In this document: one piece after another, positions 2,046-18,113 of the stretch
How the letters are laid out: every line of letters begins with the position of its first letter
Position numbering within the stretch: the first letter of the stretch is position 1
Origin: a virus
Length of the DNA: 24,413 nt
Virus record (IMG/VR): IMGVR_UViG_3300020055_000151
Span: 1 to 24,413 of that record
Direction: 5' to 3' (one strand)
Made by a program: the position numbers and the translations under genes
Notes under the pieces: model-generated
Databases searched by the model: none
What the model was told of the DNA's origin: nothing
What the model saw: only the letters and a program-made list of their open reading frames with translations

Positions 2046-3148
2046 AAGAGCCAACTTCAACTTACTATGTTTTAACTGAAGAAGAAAAAGCTGAAAGTTT
2101 AAAGTTGTTTAAAAAACATGATGGCAATTTATTGTTATGCATAAGGGAATTATTCAACAACCCAAAAGAAAGAGGCACTACTAGCAAAGGTAGAGCCGTA
2201 AGAGAATTTTGGATAGAAAAAGGTTTAAATTACAGAACTAAAGTTAGAATGAATTCTGGCTCACCTTCTTCTATCCCTAAAAGCAAAATCATTTTAACTG
2301 CAGAAGAAGAGTCTTTTATTAAACAGCATTATACTCCAGAACTAACAAAAAAAGAAGTTGCCAAAATTATTTGGCCAGAAGAAAGCAAAAAAAATAATTT
2401 TTTCCTTGGAAAAAAATTTGCTTTGATGTCTGAATTCATAAATGAAGAATTTAGTTCGGTCAACCTCAGAGATAATGCTATTACCGAAAAATATTCCCCG
2501 CCTAGAATATTGTCAGCTTTAGTTAAAAGAATAAACAAGATAGTTATGAAAGAATTTGATTCTGAAAAACTATCCATGCAAGACAAAAAAAATCTAGAAA
2601 AATTATTAAGTTATCTAGCTGCCCCAAGGTTTAATCAAGTCATAAACTCTTATGTCACTAAAGAGTCTAGGGATTTATTTGAATCGGAGTATATACGAAG
2701 TACTTGGGATAAACCTGATTTAACATCAGATGAATTAAATTTATATATCAATGTTTGTATGGATTACGTTAACCTTAGAGAAATAGAAATACAAAAACAA
2801 AAATTAAATCAAATGTTCGATGAAACTGAAGGGCAGAATGATTTGACTATGAGGTTGACAGAAATGTTAAAAACGAAAGCTGAAGAATATAATCAGTGCA
2901 CTAATCGAATAGATAAAATGTTGGCCAAGTTAAATGGCGAAAGATCTAAAAGAATTCAAAATCAACATCAACGAAATGCTTCGATTATTTCTTTGGTTCA
3001 ATTGTTTCAAGATGAACAAGAAAGAAAGTTGATGATTCAGATGGCAGACATGCAAAAGAAAATTGTTTATGAAGAAGCGGATCAAATTGAAAAAATGTCT
3101 GAGTGGAAAGCTAGAGTTTTAGGCATAAGTAAAAATGACGCAATATGA
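2042..3148 (+). CDS. HTH and coiled-coil protein of unknown function (possible small terminase analogue)
   Basis: A 368-residue charged protein that I do not recognise with certainty. The N-terminal third holds two stretches that could be helix-turn-helix units: about residues 12-60 (EEEKAESLKLFKKHDGNL, then GRAVREFWIEKGL) and about 85-112 (LTAEEESFIKQHYTPELTKK followed by EVAKIIWPE). The second resembles a homeodomain-like DNA-binding helix pair. A middle helical part (150-235) follows, and the last third (about 240-355) is rich in E, K, Q and M with heptad-like spacing, likely a coiled coil. It overlaps the sigma-like gene by 4 bases (ATGA) and the nuclease gene by 14, so it is translated with them. 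Its place two genes ahead of TerL, with DNA-binding and oligomerisation-type regions, fits a small terminase subunit, but no family motif proves it. Confidence 0.5.
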   Translation: MKEPTSTYYVLTEEEKAESLKLFKKHDGNLLLCIRELFNNPKERGTTSKGRAVREFWIEKGLNYRTKVRMNSGSPSSIPKSKIILTAEEESFIKQHYTPELTKKEVAKIIWPEESKKNNFFLGKKFALMSEFINEEFSSVNLRDNAITEKYSPPRILSALVKRINKIVMKEFDSEKLSMQDKKNLEKLLSYLAAPRFNQVINSYVTKESRDLFESEYIRSTWDKPDLTSDELNLYINVCMDYVNLREIEIQKQKLNQMFDETEGQNDLTMRLTEMLKTKAEEYNQCTNRIDKMLAKLNGERSKRIQNQHQRNASIISLVQLFQDEQERKLMIQMADMQKKIVYEEADQIEKMSEWKARVLGISKNDAI

Positions 3149-4091
3149 ATTGAGCTGTAAAGTTTGCGAAAAGAAGTTCACTAAACTTGTATCTTTGCAC
3201 AAGCACATAAAGCAACATAGTATGCATTTAGCAGAATACTATGTAAACTTTTTTGGCAGAAAGAATTTGCTAACTGGAGACCTGTTACCGTTTAAAGATG
3301 TAGAATCTTATTTTCACAAAGATTTTACTAACAGGATACAAATGAATAAATGGTTAAGGCAGGTTGGCCAAACAAAAGCTAAAGAATATGTGCAGTCAAC
3401 TATATTAAAAAGGGTTTATGATAAAAAAAGAGAATATTTGCCTTTTCATTTAGAAATGGAACATTGTTTTTTACCTAAGCTCGATATAGTGCGAGAGCTT
3501 TTTGGTAGTTATTCAAATTTTGCAGAAGGCTGCGGAATAGAGCTTATGTTCGATAAACCTTTGGTCAAAGATTTTTTTAATTTAGATCTACCTGAAGATC
3601 TTGAAATATTTATAGATACAAGAGAGCAAAAACCATTAGATTTTAATTTTAAAACTAAAAATCAAAAATTATCTTTTGGTGATTATGCTGCGGCAGGAAA
3701 TTATTATGATTATACTTTTGTAGACAGAAAGTCTGCGAATGATTTTTGCGGAACGTTGTCGAGTGGAAACATAGATAGGTTTAGGCGTGAATTACAATTA
3801 ACAGATGATATGGATTCATGTATGTTTGTTGTTGTTGAATCAACAATACAAAAAATCATAGCGCAACAAAAAGTTTTTAAAAGAAAAGCTACTATAGATT
3901 ATTTATTAAAAAATTTAAGAGATATAATGTACGAGTTTCCTAGAAGGTGTCAATTCATTTTTACAGGAAGCAGAAACAACTCTAAATTTATCATTCCTAG
4001 AATTTTATTTTTTGGGAAAAAACTTTGGAGAACAGACTTGCAATATTTTGTAGATTATGAGCTGGATAGAAGGAAAGCAAACAAGGCATAA
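3135..4091 (+). CDS. C2H2 zinc finger plus ERCC4-type nuclease
   Basis: A 318-residue protein with two recognisable parts. Residues 8-28 form a textbook C2H2 finger: C8-x2-C11-x12-H24-x3-H28. Residues about 157-225 carry the XPF/ERCC4 nuclease signature: DTRE (161-164), GDY (182-184) and the core DRK-x3-D (197-203), matching GDXn(E/D)RKX3D, followed by an R-rich helix with Q221. These acidic residues normally bind the metal ions that cut branched DNA (flaps, forks, Holliday-like junctions). The linker (31-150) contains a YYVNFFGRKNLLTGDLLPF stretch that I cannot name. The gene overlaps the upstream gene by 14 bases and the TerL gene by 35, so it is translated with packaging. A debranching role before packaging, as for T4 endonuclease VII, is a reasonable inference; homing or recombination are alternatives. 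Confidence 0.75.
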   Translation: MTQYELSCKVCEKKFTKLVSLHKHIKQHSMHLAEYYVNFFGRKNLLTGDLLPFKDVESYFHKDFTNRIQMNKWLRQVGQTKAKEYVQSTILKRVYDKKREYLPFHLEMEHCFLPKLDIVRELFGSYSNFAEGCGIELMFDKPLVKDFFNLDLPEDLEIFIDTREQKPLDFNFKTKNQKLSFGDYAAAGNYYDYTFVDRKSANDFCGTLSSGNIDRFRRELQLTDDMDSCMFVVVESTIQKIIAQQKVFKRKATIDYLLKNLRDIMYEFPRRCQFIFTGSRNNSKFIIPRILFFGKKLWRTDLQYFVDYELDRRKANKA

Positions 4092-7000
4092 GGCTAGAAC
4101 CAGAAATAATAAAGAACTTTTAGATTTGGATGGTTTCTTGGAAGAAAATGACGCCAAGATAGCTTTATACGAATTTCTAAGAGGAAATATTACCTTTGCT
4201 TCTGACCTGATTTTAGGAATCAAGTTATTTCCATTTCAACATATGGCTGTAAAGTCTATGTTTGAAACAGATTATTTTTTGGGCGTGTGGTGTTTAAACC
4301 AAGACGATTATGTTTTATCAGAACACGGTTTCAAAAAAATAAAAAATGTTGAAATTGGAGATAAGGTTCAGTCAAGAAAAAAATTAAACTTAGTAACTGA
4401 TAAAAAAACAAACCCTTTAGAAGAAGGCTTAGAAATCGTTCTGAGCTCAGGCGACAGTTTTAAAGCTAAAAAAGGCCATAAAGTCTTAGTTTACGATAAA
4501 AACAATTTTGTTTTTAAAAATGTAGAAGATTTAAATTGTGAAGATGACATTCCTATAAAATTAGCGACTGATATTTGGGGCGACTTAGATATAACAAAAG
4601 GCTCTAATTATAAAAGGTCTTCTTATTTATTTTATGCATTAGGTTATATTTTAGGGGATGGGTGGGTAAATCAAGATGGTTTGCATTATTGCTCTCAAAA
4701 TGCAGAAGTCCATGAAACTATTTACAATTTTATAAATGAAAATGGATTAAAATCTTATTCAAGACAAAGGTCAGATAATTTATATTTTTACGAATATTCT
4801 ATTTTTAATAGGGAGCTGGTTTCTTGGCTTGAAAGTTTAGGTTGGGATAAAAGCTTAAAATCTAAAGATAAAATTATATCTGATGAGTTATTGAAAGGTT
4901 CTAAAAATGAATTGTGCGCTTTGATAGGGGGTTTATTTGATGCAGATGGGTATGCGGCTTTCAACCAAAAAAGTAATAAAGTTGGTTTAAAGAGTACATC
5001 TTTAAGCATACTAAGGCAAGTTAAAATGTTGCTTAATAATATTGGGATAATTTCTTTCCTAAGAAAAAGTGGGCAGCACAAAAGTCGCTCTTACTATGAT
5101 TTAGTAATTTCGAATGATAGCCAATCGTTAAGATTATTCAAAAAACATATAGATTTTATAGTAGAACATAAAAAAGAAAATCTCAATAAGATTTTGCAAT
5201 TTAGCGAAAAAAGAAATTATCAAAACAATTTAGTGCCACATCTAGGGCAAGTTTTAAAACAAGAAGGATCTTTTAAAAAAATAACAGGGCGCAGAGGTAA
5301 TTGGGGCAAATCATTTTCTCAAAACAGTTTTGATCAATTAAAAAATTTATCCCTTGAGACTGAAAACATTATCAAGAACATAAAAGATGAAAAAGTGTTT
5401 TTTTCTAAAATTGAATCTATCAATAATTGTAAAGTTATTTCTGTTGATATAACGGTAGAAAACGAAGAAAATTATTTAGGAAACGGTTTTGTGCATCATA
5501 ATAGCCGTGGTATGTCTAAATCTTTTACCACAGGTATTTATGCGGCACTTGATGCAGTATTAAATCAGGGAGTCGAAATAGGAATTTTGTCTAAATCATT
5601 TAGGCAGGCGAAAATGATCTTCAAAAAAATAGAAGATATTGCGGCAAAACCAGAAGCTGCTTTTTTCAAACAATGCATTACTAAAGTTTCCAAAAGCAAT
5701 GATGAATGGTTGATGGAAATCGGAAGAAGTCGTATTAGAGCATTACCTTTAGGTGATGGTGAAAAGTTACGTGGTTTTCGTTTTCAAAGAATCATTATTG
5801 ATGAATTCTTATTGATGCCAGAAAGAATTTATAATGAGGTTATAGTTCCATTCTTGTCGGTAGTTGAAAACCCAACTCAACGCCAAGAGCTGTACGGTCT
5901 CGAAACAATGCTTATTGAGCAGGGTAAAATGAAAGAAGAGGAAAGGTATGTTTGGCCAAACAATAAATTAATAGCTTTGTCATCCGCATCTTACAAATTT
6001 GAATATTTGTACAAACTTTACAATCAATTCGACTTTTTAATAACTCAAGAAAACGAAAAAGATAAGGCGACAAGGTGCATCATGCAGTTTAGTTATGATT
6101 GTGCCCCAAGTCAGCTTTATGATCAAAACCTTGTTAATCAAGCTAAAGCTACAATGAGCCAATCTCAGTTTGATAGAGAGTTTGGTGCAGTTTTTACCGA
6201 TGATAGTTCAGGTTACTTTAAAACAAGTAAAATGGCAGACTGCACTATTCAAGATGGAGATTTGCCGTGCGTAGAAGTTCAGGGCGACCCTTCTGCTGAT
6301 TATATATTAGCTTTTGACCCTTCTTGGTCCCAAACAGAAAGTTCAGATGATTTTGCGATACAAATACTGAAGCTGCATCCAGAAAACGAAAAATGCACTC
6401 TTGTTCACAGTTATGCTTTATCTGGAACATCTTTGAAACACCACATCAATTACTTTTTATACTGCTTAGATAATTTTAATATTGTTGCTATAGTCGGTGA
6501 CTATAATGGAGGCGTTCAGTTTTTGCAATCTTGCAATGAAAGTGAAGTGTTTCAATCTAGGAAATTAAAATTAAAAACTATTGATATATCTTTTGAAAAT
6601 CCAGAAGAATATAAAAACGACCTGAGAATGTTCAAGATAGAATACAATAAAAACGACAATAAAATAGTTTATTTAAGAAAGCCTACTAGTAAATGGATTA
6701 GACTGGCAAACGAATTACTTCAATCTAATTTTGATCATAGAAGATTGTTTTTTGCTTCTAGAGCTATTGACGAATCTTACAGTCAGCAAAAAAAGAAAAG
6801 TATACCTATAGAAGATTTAAAATTTTTAAGATCTGCTGAAGAAACAAAGCAAAGTCCTGCAGCCAAAATGATTGATTTTATCGAGCACCAATCTGATATG
6901 ATTGACTTAACAAAGAATGAATGTGCTTTGATACAAATTACAACAACTTCTCAAGGAACCCAAACATTTGATTTGCCTCCAAACTTGAGAAGGCAGTCTG

Positions 7001-7134
7001 GACCAGATAAAGCCAGAAAAGACTCATATTCCGCTTTAGTATTAGGAAATTGGATGGCTAAAATATATTTTGATAGCAATAGTAAAGATGTAGAAGAGGT
7101 ATTCGAAACCTTCACTCCTATGTTTATAAGTTAA
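4057..7134 (+). CDS. terL: Terminase large subunit (TerL) interrupted by an intein
   Basis: A 1025-residue precursor. Removing the intein (residues 79-482) leaves 621 residues, a normal TerL length. The ATPase part has the terminase-type Walker A SRGMSKS (483-489, immediately after the intein), Walker B RIIIDEF (578-584) and a coupling motif LSSAS (641-645). The C-terminal RuvC-like nuclease shows FDPSW (D754), VGDYNGG (D815) and ARKDSYSA (D989), the usual acidic triad. TerL pumps DNA into the procapsid through the portal and cuts the concatemer. The ATG at 4057 gives MSWIEGKQTRHKARTRNN and lies 35 bases inside the upstream gene, without a Shine-Dalgarno site, implying translational coupling. 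Host factors are not needed for splicing: excision should join W78 to S483. A possible terminator hairpin follows the stop codon. Confidence 0.93.
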   Translation: MSWIEGKQTRHKARTRNNKELLDLDGFLEENDAKIALYEFLRGNITFASDLILGIKLFPFQHMAVKSMFETDYFLGVWCLNQDDYVLSEHGFKKIKNVEIGDKVQSRKKLNLVTDKKTNPLEEGLEIVLSSGDSFKAKKGHKVLVYDKNNFVFKNVEDLNCEDDIPIKLATDIWGDLDITKGSNYKRSSYLFYALGYILGDGWVNQDGLHYCSQNAEVHETIYNFINENGLKSYSRQRSDNLYFYEYSIFNRELVSWLESLGWDKSLKSKDKIISDELLKGSKNELCALIGGLFDADGYAAFNQKSNKVGLKSTSLSILRQVKMLLNNIGIISFLRKSGQHKSRSYYDLVISNDSQSLRLFKKHIDFIVEHKKENLNKILQFSEKRNYQNNLVPHLGQVLKQEGSFKKITGRRGNWGKSFSQNSFDQLKNLSLETENIIKNIKDEKVFFSKIESINNCKVISVDITVENEENYLGNGFVHHNSRGMSKSFTTGIYAALDAVLNQGVEIGILSKSFRQAKMIFKKIEDIAAKPEAAFFKQCITKVSKSNDEWLMEIGRSRIRALPLGDGEKLRGFRFQRIIIDEFLLMPERIYNEVIVPFLSVVENPTQRQELYGLETMLIEQGKMKEEERYVWPNNKLIALSSASYKFEYLYKLYNQFDFLITQENEKDKATRCIMQFSYDCAPSQLYDQNLVNQAKATMSQSQFDREFGAVFTDDSSGYFKTSKMADCTIQDGDLPCVEVQGDPSADYILAFDPSWSQTESSDDFAIQILKLHPENEKCTLVHSYALSGTSLKHHINYFLYCLDNFNIVAIVGDYNGGVQFLQSCNESEVFQSRKLKLKTIDISFENPEEYKNDLRMFKIEYNKNDNKIVYLRKPTSKWIRLANELLQSNFDHRRLFFASRAIDESYSQQKKKSIPIEDLKFLRSAEETKQSPAAKMIDFIEHQSDMIDLTKNECALIQITTTSQGTQTFDLPPNLRRQSGPDKARKDSYSALVLGNWMAKIYFDSNSKDVEEVFETFTPMFIS
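4291..5502 (+). mobile_element. In-frame intein with LAGLIDADG homing endonuclease inside terL
   Basis: The insert is 404 codons with exact splice junctions: Cys1 (TGT 4291-4293, residue 79), C-terminal His-Asn (H481, N482) and Ser as the +1 extein residue (AGC 5503-5505). Block A is CLNQDDYVLSEHGF with IGDKV downstream; block B has H141 in AKKGHKVLVYD; block F/G is VDITVENEENYLGNGFVHHN. The homing endonuclease has both dodecapeptide motifs, LGYILGDGW (195-203) and LIGGLFDADGY (289-299), each keeping its catalytic Asp, so it looks intact. Insertion falls directly before the Walker A serine, the most conserved site of TerL, as is typical for inteins. An unspliced protein would have no working P-loop. 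No stop or frameshift is seen. Confidence 0.93.
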
Positions 7135-13275: not shown

Positions 13276-14700
13276 TTACGTCGCAGGTGTAACACCGGCT
13301 ACTAATTGGCTTAGCTTCTTCTCGCCTAACGGGTAAGACCTAATACATCTAAATAAGTTGTAACTACCATTCATGATCAAACCGTTTGTGGTATCATTTG
13401 CGCCACCAACTTGGAATGAAAATGTCAAATCAGCAGTTTGATTATCTCCAATAGCGTTAGAGATAGTTTGACTTTCTAATCTAGCCCCTTTGATTTGGAA
13501 CTGAATATCAAAAGCGCCTGCTCCTGTTACAGCCGATCCAGTAGCTGGATTACAAGCATATAAGCTTAATGTCATATCTAAAGTTTGAGTATCACAAAGT
13601 TTATGGAATAAGTTTATTTTATTGTACTCAGAAACAATAGTGGACAAAGTGACCTCACCATTTAATGGTAAATCAACGACTCTTGCATATCCGAAAGTAT
13701 TACCTAATCTACCTAATACTGTGCGGGACATTGGCATGCTTAACGTGAAGCTTTGAATATGAGCTTTACCGTCTCCTTCAGTAACAATTATTCCATCAGT
13801 AGAATTAGAAAGGGACAATGTGATATCTCCCGGGCGTAATGCAGAAGGTGTTCCATCTGTACCTGTAGTATTAATAGCAAGCGTATCATTAGCATTTTCT
13901 TCTCCTTGCATAATAAACTGAGGAACGCTACTTGCAGTGCTTGCATCACCTGTCGAATAACTGCCTTCAGATGTTACAGAAGGAACGAATCTAGCATAAT
14001 GGTTAGAATTAGTAGGATCTGCTTGTGTTACAACACCACCTGATATTACGTCGTTTACGTTAATATTGAACGCTTCAACTGTGACGCTAGCAGTAGGGAT
14101 TGCCCCTACAGCAGCTTCTACAGTGTAATCTGTAATAAAACCGTTGCCAATACCGATAACATTGAATACTCCGCTTGATTGAGTTTTATCTGCATCGTGT
14201 ACATCAACACCTTCTTCACTGGTAAGGATGAAAAAATTGTTGCCTTGACTATCTTCAATTAACCCTGATAAAGCGCTAATTCCAGAGTAACAAACATCGC
14301 TTGAATTATAAAGAGCACTATCTCTAGAAGCTATTTTATTCGTAGGTATATTGAAACCCATTTTTCTTTCATTGGCACCATCAGTTAAATAATAACTGAA
14401 ATCCAAACCGACAGTTGGAGATTCCATGGAAATAGAATCTAATCGTGCAAGTTTGCCAAATTCATTAATATCAGTTCTGTTGATAGTAAAATTGAAATTA
14501 GCATTTTGCACTCTTGAAATGGGCATTGTTAAAGATCTTAAATTGTAACTACTTGTAAGATCGCCTATACCTGAAATATTACTCCATGTTTCATTTGCGG
14601 TTACATCGTCACCACCATTACTTTCTTGAAGACAGCAACCAGTTGAACCGGGGGTAATAAACAGCGCCTCGCTTTGATAAATTATTCTGTTTCTTGCCAT
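13276..14700 (-). CDS. Tail tube-like virion protein, copy B
   Basis: A 474-residue protein paralogous to its upstream neighbour. Both start MARNRIIYQSEALF and share LRSLTMP, ANFNFTINRTDINEF, GKLARLDS, MESPTVGLDF, YYLTDG, NGFI-x-DYTVEAAVG, PTASVTVEAFNI, LRPGDITL, SMSRTV-like PMSRTVL and RLGNTFGYARV. A protein with two beta-sandwich halves (about 55-230 and 290-460) with VTVEAFNI and the RLGNTFGYAR turn is what I expect of a large phage tail tube subunit with repeated tube domains. Location supports this: last in a minus-strand block running connector, neck, tube. Polymerised rings form the DNA channel of the tail. The ATG at 14700 has a weak AGAAAG upstream; the gap from copy A is 24 bases, so both are co-transcribed. 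The bidirectional terminator follows 15 bases after the stop. It could alternatively be a tube decoration protein. Confidence 0.65.
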   Translation of the reverse strand: MARNRIIYQSEALFITPGSTGCCLQESNGGDDVTANETWSNISGIGDLTSSYNLRSLTMPISRVQNANFNFTINRTDINEFGKLARLDSISMESPTVGLDFSYYLTDGANERKMGFNIPTNKIASRDSALYNSSDVCYSGISALSGLIEDSQGNNFFILTSEEGVDVHDADKTQSSGVFNVIGIGNGFITDYTVEAAVGAIPTASVTVEAFNINVNDVISGGVVTQADPTNSNHYARFVPSVTSEGSYSTGDASTASSVPQFIMQGEENANDTLAINTTGTDGTPSALRPGDITLSLSNSTDGIIVTEGDGKAHIQSFTLSMPMSRTVLGRLGNTFGYARVVDLPLNGEVTLSTIVSEYNKINLFHKLCDTQTLDMTLSLYACNPATGSAVTGAGAFDIQFQIKGARLESQTISNAIGDNQTADLTFSFQVGGANDTTNGLIMNGSYNLFRCIRSYPLGEKKLSQLVAGVTPAT

Positions 14701-14724
14701 TTTATATTCTTTCTATTTTAAATT

Positions 14725-16125
14725 TTAAGACCTGTAAGAACCATCTATAGCTTTATTTTTACCTAATGGGTAAAATGGTAGCGTCCTAAATAGTGGGTAG
14801 CTTCCATACATAAATATACCGTTATTTTGATCTTTTGCCCCGCCAAGTTGGCAGCTGAAAGTCATATCAACAGTTTCGTTGTCTCCAATAGCGTTAGAAA
14901 AAGTTTCACTATCTAATCTAGCATTTTTAACTTCAAATTTAATTTTGCTAGATCCCGGTAAACCTGTAGAAGGATCACAATTGTATAAATCCAAGGTGAA
15001 TGTGTGGGTTTGAGTGTGGCACAAATTATTGTACAAATTAAAGGCATTGTTTAATTCTGAAACAATTGCAGAAATAGAAACCTCAATATTTAAAGGTAAA
15101 TCTATAACTCTAGCATAACCAAACGTATTCCCAAGTCTTTGTAAAACTGTTCTAGACATTGGTACAGAGATACTCATACTTTGAATGTGTGCAACTCCAT
15201 CGCCTGCTAAATCTGTTATACCGTCATAAGCTCCAGATTGGCCAATGGTTAAAGTGATATCTCCGGGTCTTAATGCTGTTACGCTTCCAGTTCCAGAAAC
15301 ATTTAATGGTAGACCTACTGCCTCAGTGCCTTGAATGAAGTATTCTTGAGTTGAGTTGATAGAGCCATCACTAATATTAATCCAAGGAGAAATCGGTGAT
15401 GTGCTAGCGTTACCTGATGCTCTGTCTTCTACTTTGATATTAAAAGCTTCAACGGTAACAGAAGCAGTAGGAATAGATCCAACCGCAGCTTCAACGGTGT
15501 AATCAGATATAAAACCGTTACCAATTGAAACAACATCGTATTCTGTAGCAGCATTAGCTGATGTTACTGAGTTAGCTTGAACATCTTTGCCTTCTTTGGT
15601 CACAAGGATAAAAAAGTTATTTCCTTGGGTATCCTCAATTAAACCAGATAGTGCGCTATATCCTGATAAAGCCAAATCGCCAGTACTATAAGGAGTACTT
15701 GTATCTGGTCTACCTCCATCGTAACCATCTAATGTAGATGTTGGTACATTAAACCCTAGTTTTCTTTCGTTACCTCCATCAGTTAGGTAATAATTGAAAT
15801 CTAACCCAACAGTCGGGGATTCCATTGCTATAGAGTCTAATCGTGCTAACTTACCGAATTCATTGATATCTGTTCTATTAATCGTAAAATTAAAATTCGC
15901 AGATTGAATTCTTTCCAGCGGCATAGTTAAAGACCTTAATTTAGGTCCACTAGTGTAATTGGGACTTTCCCATTCTGTAATCCCAGTCCAAGAAGTATAA
16001 CCATGATCATCTAATACGTTTGGGGTATCAGATGCACCGGCACCTCCTTTTTGCAAATGGTAGCCAGTTGAACTGGGGGAAACAAAAAGAGCTTCACTTT
16101 GATAAATTATTCTATTTCTTGCCAT
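14725..16125 (-). CDS. Tail tube-like virion protein, copy A
   Basis: A 466-residue paralogue of the protein downstream of it, by eye well over half identical in the N-terminal 120 residues and in the VTVEAFNI and LGNTFGYARV blocks, and divergent in the loops (about 15-50, 140-160, 230-275). Loops are where tube subunits usually vary. Residues 1-14 are identical to copy B, which fixes the ATG at 16125. It follows three head-tail joining genes on the same strand, the normal slot for a major tail protein. The 64-base leader has no Shine-Dalgarno site; an exact TATAAATA lies 62 bases before the ATG and may be its late promoter. Whether A and B build one mixed tube, or one is the tube and the other a cap or decoration, cannot be told from sequence. 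Confidence 0.68.
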   Translation of the reverse strand: MARNRIIYQSEALFVSPSSTGYHLQKGGAGASDTPNVLDDHGYTSWTGITEWESPNYTSGPKLRSLTMPLERIQSANFNFTINRTDINEFGKLARLDSIAMESPTVGLDFNYYLTDGGNERKLGFNVPTSTLDGYDGGRPDTSTPYSTGDLALSGYSALSGLIEDTQGNNFFILVTKEGKDVQANSVTSANAATEYDVVSIGNGFISDYTVEAAVGSIPTASVTVEAFNIKVEDRASGNASTSPISPWINISDGSINSTQEYFIQGTEAVGLPLNVSGTGSVTALRPGDITLTIGQSGAYDGITDLAGDGVAHIQSMSISVPMSRTVLQRLGNTFGYARVIDLPLNIEVSISAIVSELNNAFNLYNNLCHTQTHTFTLDLYNCDPSTGLPGSSKIKFEVKNARLDSETFSNAIGDNETVDMTFSCQLGGAKDQNNGIFMYGSYPLFRTLPFYPLGKNKAIDGSYRS

Positions 16126-16186
16126 AATGTTTTAGGTGTTAAATTTACAATAATTTACAACTTTTGGTTAAATTTGAGAAATTTTA

Positions 16187-16194
16187 TATTTATA
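16187..16194 (-). promoter_or_regulatory. Candidate late promoter TATAAATA upstream of the tube genes
   Basis: Read on the minus strand, 16194-16187 is TATAAATA, identical to the T4 late promoter -10 octamer. It overlaps the stop codon of the 285-residue gene and lies about 60 bases before the copy A start, so it could give the tube genes their own strong transcript. The octamer is AT-only and also occurs by chance inside genes here (for instance near 1021 and 3607 on the minus strand), so the evidence is position, not sequence alone. Confidence 0.35.
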
Positions 16195-17047
16195 ATCTGG
16201 GGAACCGATACTTGTGAATTTCAAAATCTATAAACCCAACATACAAAGAAGGTTCTAAAACTTTTTTGATTCTATCCGAGAACTTCGATACCATAGTATT
16301 ATCTATTAAGTATATATCGTTAGGATAATTACTTGCTAACCCTGTATAATTATATCCATTGGGATATTGAGACGTTTTGATATCACCATATTCGTTTAAT
16401 GGAACTCCTGTAAATGGCACATTAGCAAATACTTCCTTGTTTGAATCATTGAATATAGAGAGTATACCGTCTAACTCGTACATATTTTCCGCAAATACCA
16501 CAGCTTTGCCTTGAGCTATAGTGTTATCTTCGCCGCCTAAAGCGAAAGGTTGGTTGTTTAAGCTTTCTATGGATAAAAATGCAGCAGGCGTTACTTGATC
16601 GTAAGGTTTTATGTTTGTAAGTGTTCTAGTATACCTACTGTTGCTTTCGTATTTACCTTCTAATATTAGTTGTTCTTCGTTTTGATTAGATATGTAAGTA
16701 TTAAAGTTTTTGACACTATAAGTGCCGCTAATATTTGTTCCAGTAGGAAACCCTTCGTCGAACATCACTCTTCCGTTATCATAATCTATAATTAAGCCAC
16801 TTACGCCTCTTGTGTATTCTACGCCATCGCCACTGACAGACTCTATAACAACAGCACTATCGATAGATTTATCAGCGACAAACTGTTTGTAAGGACTGCC
16901 AAAAACAACTTTGTCGGGAAACCTTGTGTCAGAATAATAATAAAAATCGCTAGTAAACGTTTCGTAAGCTTCGCCTTTTCTCATTAAATATGAGTCGAAC
17001 CATAAATAAAAACTGCTAAGTAGTTGGTGCTGAAAAACTGGTTTCAT
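16190..17047 (-). CDS. Head-tail joining or neck virion protein, unknown family
   Basis: A 285-residue protein without a motif I can name. It begins MKPVFQHQLLSSFYLWFDSY and is rich in Y, F, N and G with a beta-type pattern: SGLIIDYDNGRVMFDEGFP (82-100) and FLSIESLNN with PFALGGEDNTIAQG are strand-turn-strand segments, and the C-terminus (IKKVLEPSLYVGFIDFEIHK) looks like a strand-rich interface. No signal peptide, membrane segment or cysteine pair is apparent. It overlaps the upstream gene by 4 bases (ATGA) and is followed, after a 64-base gap, by the tail tube genes. In ordered tail modules this slot is filled by a tail terminator or tail completion protein, which is my best inference. Confidence 0.55.
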   Translation of the reverse strand: MKPVFQHQLLSSFYLWFDSYLMRKGEAYETFTSDFYYYSDTRFPDKVVFGSPYKQFVADKSIDSAVVIESVSGDGVEYTRGVSGLIIDYDNGRVMFDEGFPTGTNISGTYSVKNFNTYISNQNEEQLILEGKYESNSRYTRTLTNIKPYDQVTPAAFLSIESLNNQPFALGGEDNTIAQGKAVVFAENMYELDGILSIFNDSNKEVFANVPFTGVPLNEYGDIKTSQYPNGYNYTGLASNYPNDIYLIDNTMVSKFSDRIKKVLEPSLYVGFIDFEIHKYRFPRL

Positions 17048-17661
17048 TTCGTGTATCTATCTTCTAAATTTTTTACGTTTTTGTAATATTCGTTTAGTAA
17101 TTCACTTAAATAGCCTGTGTTTGTGAATTTACCTGACCTGATTTTTCTGTTAGCTTGTATACCTTCTCCAGACCTCGATTCTTCATGGTCAGATGTAATA
17201 TACATGCCGAAGCCTGATAGCCCTGTTTCCATGGCTTTAACCCATGATCTTCCTCTTGCCCAAGGTAAAGGAGTAGCTTTATATATTTTATCTTTTGTTG
17301 GTACGTCTATTTTAACATCTGTATAACCATTTCTACTAACAATTTTAATTTCGTATTCCATCAGTATAGCTTTTAAAACTTTTATAGGTTTTTCGTCTTC
17401 ATAAAAACCAATAAAACCAAACAAATTTGAATACCCTTTTAAAGTGCCGCTAAGATTGTATCCATTAGGACCCATATCTATTTCTCTTGATATAGGGTGA
17501 TTTAAAAAACTTTGTATGAATTTATTGCGAACTGATCGCATAGCCTTTTCAGCTCTAGTTCTAACTGTCTTTTTCCACTCCGCTGTTAAATGCAATTTGT
17601 TAAGCTCCGGTATTACGTAGAGCTTCATCAAATCCCTTTTTCTATAAGTGATAGATGGCAT
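17044..17661 (-). CDS. Neck or tail-completion protein
   Basis: A 205-residue basic protein. The N-terminal half is helical and positively charged (RKRDLMKLYVIPEL, KKTVRTRAEKAMRSVRNKFI). Then comes a G/Y-rich stretch GYNLSGTLKGYSNLFGFIGF and a block I associate with structural proteins of tailed phages: PLPWARGRSWVKAMETGLSG (131-150), FGMYI, SRSGEGIQ and a C-terminal TGYLSELLNEYYKN helix. The RSWVKAMETGLSG / SGxGIQ pattern appears in head-tail joining proteins with an HK97 gp10-like fold, but my match is by memory. Overlaps of 1 base upstream (TAATG) and 4 bases downstream (ATGA) show tight translational coupling with both neighbours. Expected to sit between portal ring and tail tube. Confidence 0.55.
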   Translation of the reverse strand: MPSITYRKRDLMKLYVIPELNKLHLTAEWKKTVRTRAEKAMRSVRNKFIQSFLNHPISREIDMGPNGYNLSGTLKGYSNLFGFIGFYEDEKPIKVLKAILMEYEIKIVSRNGYTDVKIDVPTKDKIYKATPLPWARGRSWVKAMETGLSGFGMYITSDHEESRSGEGIQANRKIRSGKFTNTGYLSELLNEYYKNVKNLEDRYTK

Positions 17662-18113
17662 TATTGAGATGATTTAACAAAGAATGTATAAAATTGAACA
17701 TCAAATAAACCATGCCCACGAAAATCGCTATCGACAAAGTAAACGCCATTATCGAATTCTAATCTTAGGCAATCTTTAACTGTGCTATAATCAGCAGCTT
17801 TAATTTTAAGCCTTATCTTGCCTTCTTGCATTTTAATTTTTAATTGAGAGTCTGCTTCAGAATCTGAAAAATAATCTTCATCATAAGATTTGTTATACAT
17901 AATTCTGGCATATATTTGCGCAGATTGAGGCGTATAAGTTATACTCGTTGTGGCCCCAGCATTTCCGTAAACTGAGTTGAAAGATGTACTTGGAGTAGAA
18001 ATAGTTTCTTTAGCTCTTTTATAAACAGTAACCAGCCTAGCAAAAGTATCATGCTGATCATTCATTATGCTATTTAATGCGCTTTTTTCTGTTGATGTTA
18101 GTAAGCTTGACAT
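17661..18113 (-). CDS. Probable head-tail connector protein
   Basis: A 150-residue protein and the first gene of the minus-strand module. It starts MSSLLTSTEKSALNSIMNDQ, has an S/T-rich middle (residues 38-60), then alternating strands: QIYARIMYN (65-73), KIRLKIKAADYSTV (98-111), CLRLEFDNGVYFVDSDF (114-130) and a final DVQFYTFFVK strand. The small beta-barrel look and the place ahead of neck and tube genes suggest a head-tail connector or stopper, but no family motif is certain. A TGTATAAT box starts 16 bases before the ATG, which would give a nearly leaderless mRNA, and an exact TATAAATA lies about 58 bases before it. It shares one base with the next gene (TAATG). Confidence 0.5.
   Translation of the reverse strand: MSSLLTSTEKSALNSIMNDQHDTFARLVTVYKRAKETISTPSTSFNSVYGNAGATTSITYTPQSAQIYARIMYNKSYDEDYFSDSEADSQLKIKMQEGKIRLKIKAADYSTVKDCLRLEFDNGVYFVDSDFRGHGLFDVQFYTFFVKSSQ

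Follow-up and report, generated by a model that had tools for sequence, protein, structure and literature searches.

A LAGLIDADG intein directly before the Walker A motif of a terminase_6-type phage large terminase, and relatives with two and three inteins

Inteins in phage terminases

Inteins in the P-loop of the phage large terminase (TerL) are already known from mycobacteriophages. All five mycobacteriophage TerL inteins which were assayed (TerL1-b, TerL1-c, TerL1-e, TerL6-f and Pham3880-g) were found to splice, and TerL1-b and TerL1-c cut the intein-less partner genes in experiments (PMC5050341). TerL1-a is inserted in the P-loop at Lys|Thr, with TerL1-b shifted by one residue, and both lie in terminases of the terminase_1 type; the only terminase_6 insertion of that study, TerL6-f, lies in the C-motif (PMC5050341). 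The terminase of Psychrobacillus phage Perkons (MT325768, ORF209) also carries an intein in its P-loop, at GFGK|T. Two homing inteins in a single ATPase gene have been described for the MCM protein of Haloferax (MCM-a and MCM-d), one of them after the Walker A Lys. Homing of a single intein works there, joint homing of both into an empty allele is poor and sequential invasion was inferred (PMC10643990).

Here we analyse a TerL intein of an uncultured phage. The window, that is, the whole stretch of DNA under analysis, is the complete metagenomic virus record IMGVR_UViG_3300020055_000151 (positions 1 to 24,413; 24,413 nt). In contrast to TerL1-a and TerL1-b the intein interrupts a terminase_6-type TerL six residues before the Lys|Ser junction and is not of their type, and unlike TerL6-f it lies at the start of the P-loop. 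This insertion point is new for a terminase_6-type TerL and is absent among the seven sites described in PMC5050341, although by itself the intein of the window adds just one further case to the TerL inteins of phages. More surprising, and also new here, is that this site (site a) and the Lys|Ser junction (site b) are filled together in some relatives with only SRGMSK as middle extein, a difference both from TerL1-a/b and from Haloferax, where MCM-a and MCM-d are not six residues apart. The Perkons intein occupies the position of site b and shares about 24% identity with that of the window. We read the window element as a class-1 intein of full length whose homing endonuclease has two LAGLIDADG motifs, and which would splice and home as a selfish element; we give this reading a probability of about 0.88.

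The terminase precursor and its intein

The TerL precursor of 1025 amino acids is encoded in a single open frame at position 4057–7134 (stop included; this and all following features of the precursor are on the plus strand). In profile searches the extein part matches Terminase_6N (E = 7.5e-7) and the TerL family phrog_2 (E = 2e-24), the latter match extending into the C-terminal part of TerL. The N-extein (4057–4290, 78 aa) ends with DYFLGVW and aligns without gaps to intein-less TerLs, for example with 84.6% identity to that of locus L005. The C-extein (5503–7131, 543 aa) starts with the +1 Ser of SRGMSKS. It is 73–100% identical to the best 80 TerLs of uncultured phages, the majority of which are intein-less. 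SRGMSKS is the Walker A motif (5503–5523) and aligns with residues 161–167 of T4 gp17 (SRQLGKT) as well as with SRGSGKS of the TerL of Bacillus phage Stills, and the Walker B motif IIIDE (5791–5805) aligns with IYIDE of gp17. Thus, the protein has the N-terminal ATPase with both Walker motifs of a T4/terminase_6-type TerL. The TerL alignment gave no match when its profile was searched against the PDB, and the AF2 model of the intein-less TerL was poor (pLDDT 48.5) and was left out of the site analysis.

The intein spans position 4291–5502 and comprises precursor residues 79–482, from Cys1 to the terminal HHN. An intact LAGLIDADG intein with these borders had been proposed in the initial annotation, and the profile matches, the predicted fold and the exact empty sites of relatives confirm it to the residue. 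The lengths of 404 residues for the insert and 621 residues (78 + 543) for the spliced TerL had also been given exactly. In two respects the proposal has to be refined. First, the insert had been placed exactly at the Walker A motif; it is indeed at the P-loop, but the alignment with T4 gp17 and Stills shows that it adjoins the first residue of the heptad and lies directly before it, not inside.

The intein region matches the Pfam families LAGLIDADG_3 (E = 8e-18) and Intein_splicing (E = 2e-12) above their curated cut-offs, and the match to TIGR01443 (intein_Cterm) likewise exceeds its cut-off. Every residue pointed out initially is in place: the splicing nucleophile Cys1 (4291–4293), the block B His63 within KKGH (4477–4479), the terminal His-Asn, the +1 Ser and two endonuclease motifs with Asp, that is, ALGYILGDG with Asp123 (4636–4662) and IGGLFDADG with Asp219 (4924–4950, covered by the LAGLIDADG_3 match). 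The splicing blocks F and G, which TIGR01443 recognizes, run from D386 to HHN404 (5446–5502). Across 35 homologues Cys1, His63, Asp219, Asp386, His402, His403 and Asn404 are invariant, and HHN|S is found in every aligned copy. Asp123 is nearly invariant, being replaced by Gly only in L145 and L146 (GDG to GGG). Endonuclease decay therefore occurs in this family; the window copy keeps Asp123. With Cys1, the block B His, HHN followed by Ser and a reading frame shared with intein-less orthologues, the insert has the features of a class-1 (HINT) intein, and the two motifs with their catalytic Asp are those of a LAGLIDADG homing endonuclease.

The second refinement concerns block B, in which class-1 inteins usually, though not obligatorily, have a Thr at position -3. 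Instead of this canonical Thr of TxxH the window intein has Lys60, as do all 35 aligned homologues, and the His of the usual block F consensus is also replaced. The rate of splicing is therefore not predictable.

The AF2 model of the intein, built on the 35 homologues, has a pLDDT of 94.1 and a pTM of 0.93. Its best matches among solved structures in Foldseek are the homing-endonuclease inteins PI-PfuI (1dq3, E = 6e-20), TliVMA (7qss, E = 5e-19) and PI-SceI (E of about 1e-14). These have the same predicted fold, a splicing domain plus a LAGLIDADG endonuclease, but reside in other host proteins and share 12–19% sequence identity with the window intein, for which the model predicts an intein splicing fold.

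For the window copy we infer both splicing and cleavage. Splicing would follow the standard route, with an acyl shift at Cys1, attack by Ser+1 and cyclisation of Asn404. It would join ...FLGVW to SRGMSKS..., restore the Walker A motif and yield the 621-residue TerL. Because the insert parts Walker A from the preceding segment of the ATPase, the anatomy implies that DNA packaging would depend on splicing. On co-infection the endonuclease would cleave the W|S junction of relatives with an empty site, and the cut allele would acquire the intein plus short flanking DNA through repair.

The gene order PhoH, Zn ribbon, sigma-like, unknown, ERCC4 nuclease, TerL and next gene is the same with or without the intein. 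The upstream neighbour of TerL (3135–4091) combines a C2H2-like zinc finger, which is below the cut-off, with an ERCC4-type nuclease domain; it shares 35 bases with the start of TerL and is kept beside TerL in all relatives checked. Another gene of the packaging cluster (1347–2045) has a weak match to sigma-70 region 2, just under the cut-off, and a conserved position. Between the forward-strand structural genes there are five minus-strand genes in a row (13276–18113), which have no significant family match. A genome scan for the host returned four MAG contigs with conflicting labels, and no host was assigned.

Empty sites, mobility and selection

We classed the P-loop in about 250 distinct TerL frames from all loci collected. 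About 203 have an empty P-loop. Only site a is occupied in 36 frames, among which are the window sequence itself and two of its fragments, only site b in seven, both sites in four, and sites a and b together with a third site (c) in one (L088). L146, the start of which is cut off, is a further case of a and b outside these counts. Besides the window, about 40 TerLs have a homologous intein at site a, 41–89% identical to the window intein. A comparison with relatives carrying an empty site had been proposed at the outset: about 200 TerLs are empty, and L005 and L006, the closest intein-less relatives (C-extein 92–93% identical), have the exact empty site DYFLGVW|SRGMSKS. In the window itself site b (between 5520 and 5521) and site c (junction 5607/5608) are empty. 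The +1 residue of site c is Ala in the window (5608–5610) and Ser in L088, where the site is occupied. At site a the +1 residue is Ser in all 41 occupied sites; among 191 empty sites there are ten with Ala and one with Gly. We considered whether a +1 Ala confers resistance to the intein, but such a distribution has a probability of about 9% by chance in our arithmetic, which ignores relatedness, and we set the idea aside as a mere suggestion.

The intein has moved among these phages. On a quick tree of 88 C-exteins, in which single branches are weak support for any argument, the state of site a changes at least 16 times, and well-supported branches require the a-only label to change no fewer than 13 times. 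The strongest evidence for homing comes from synonymous divergence. Between L109 and L112 it is 0 in the intein (404 codons) as opposed to 32% in the C-extein, and intein and extein also differ widely in L086/L094 (0 and 13%), L090/L095 (2 and 56%) and L130/L133 (7 and 70%). In such pairs the similarity of the flanks is highest beside the insertion site. The initial suggestion that the endonuclease could act on intein-less relatives thus receives strong comparative support for the site-a intein within this phage family.

Homing may also have left a trace in the codons at the site. In close pairs which differ in intein state, synonymous codon differences amount to 57% in codons 76–87 and to 19% elsewhere, with an excess in 10 of 11 pairs (p = 0.002). 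This footprint of about 36 bp (about 12 codons) returns to background within about ten codons. Pairs in which both sites are empty show no excess (0.11 versus 0.16 elsewhere), nor do pairs in the same occupied state (0.16 versus 0.16). A general synonymous excess at P-loop codons is ruled out by the empty pairs, and the excess is therefore tied to the change in intein state. Since carriers have codon strings in common, for example AGC AAA AGC TAC ACA, we favour short co-conversion tracts as explanation, from which surviving codon variants that escape the endonuclease are not separated.

The history of the window copy itself is quieter. The carrier L101 (intein 89% and TerL 98% identical) differs from it at synonymous sites by 0.45 in the intein and 0.44 in the extein. 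Since both parts are equally diverged, the copy was most likely inherited vertically since the split from L101, and a recent transfer is not visible in that interval. This equality, together with the endonuclease decay in L145 and L146, would suit an inherited passenger which still splices but has stopped homing, its endonuclease being inactive or without a target in the window lineage. We regard this as unlikely, though it retains some weight, as the window copy keeps both catalytic Asp residues and close intein-less relatives exist (L005 and L006). The dN/dS between window and L101 is 0.068 in the endonuclease part, no looser than 0.077 in the splicing part; it is 0.078 for the whole intein and 0.014 for the C-extein. 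The intein is under purifying selection, and we read the element best as selfish and recently moving among relatives.

The initial annotation had also proposed that splicing conditions could gate DNA packaging. An intein retained as a post-translational switch, the condition-responsive splicing of which times packaging, would profit from the position at the P-loop, which ties TerL activity to splicing, and there are reports of conditional splicing elsewhere, for example in mycobacterial DnaB (PMC6195587). The comparison of relatives speaks against it. The majority, about 200 TerLs, do without the intein, its presence is sporadic and varies between close relatives, and recent horizontal spread in the pattern of a selfish mobile element accounts for it without any benefit. 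No sign of a sensor was seen in the sequence. We consider such a switch improbable.

A degenerate, non-splicing intein or an assembly artefact, either of which would leave TerL dead, is conceivable for a metagenomic record that is possibly a fragment, but it is very improbable. The same precursor is present on a second contig (IMGVR_UViG_3300018428_000389), the related intein of L101 sits in a nearly identical TerL, the contig edge of L004 opens with HN|SRGMSKS, no catalytic residue has been lost and dN/dS is low. That the insert, in frame and intact as it is, might be an extein domain conserved throughout the TerL family can be dismissed, because about 200 relatives, some of them 92–93% identical, continue uninterrupted at the precise junction, and its fold is that of an intein.

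Relatives with two or three P-loop inteins

In several relatives the intein at site a is not alone. L087 (4146–6689), L144 (6001–8598) and L145 (1930–4527) have two complete inteins in the Walker A motif of one TerL with SRGMSK between them. In L087 and L144–L147 SRGMSK links the site-a intein to another, divergent one at Lys|Ser. The L087 sequence is identical in two datasets, and L144–L147 come from several assemblies. The site-b inteins are about 27–28% identical to the window intein. L088 (5415–8393) even has three inteins: a full one at site a, a mini-intein of 144 residues without endonuclease at site b, and another full one at site c, after SKSFRQ and about 30 residues further on. For other proteins that contain two inteins, spacings of 48 and 85 residues are stated (PMC8966425); in the literature, which we covered in part, we found no closer pairs and claim no priority.

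A pattern scan for alleles with only site b filled, in which GVW and RGMSK were required, returned no matches. The b-only alleles were found by other means and have RGLSK or GIW, outside the scan pattern. Close relatives can carry different alleles, as seen for L141 (2191–3438, only a), L271 (3705–5036, only b) and L144/L145 (a and b). Among L141, L271 and L144 the synonymous codons of the shared SRGMSK are strongly different, whereas the flanks are 93–100% alike. The b inteins of L271 and L144 are 99.4% identical between flanks which are about 93% alike, and the a inteins of L141 and L144 are 93% alike, equal to the flanks. The b intein is therefore more similar than its surroundings and the a intein is not, which suggests that site a was occupied first and that the b intein is a recent arrival.

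On balance we favour the view that the TerL P-loop is a crowded intein hotspot in this phage family, in which a and b inteins can sit around SRGMSK. If both inteins splice, the ATP-binding loop would be built by two splicing events with a common six-residue middle extein. If the hotspot reading is true, the targets of the two endonucleases, which are 18 bp apart, would rival or shield each other, and the footprint of about 36 bp in the P-loop codons would stem from co-conversion or target escape. The relatives form a natural series of alleles (empty, a only, b only, a and b, and all three sites) within one gene. With it one can test whether endonucleases whose targets are only 18 bp apart hinder or aid each other's homing, and what the minimum extein length between two inteins is. 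Virus surveys that rely on TerL will come across oversized terminases with an interrupted P-loop.

A distantly related intein was also seen on another viral contig (L277, 3768–4961), in a gene which by eye resembles DNA gyrase/topoisomerase subunit A.
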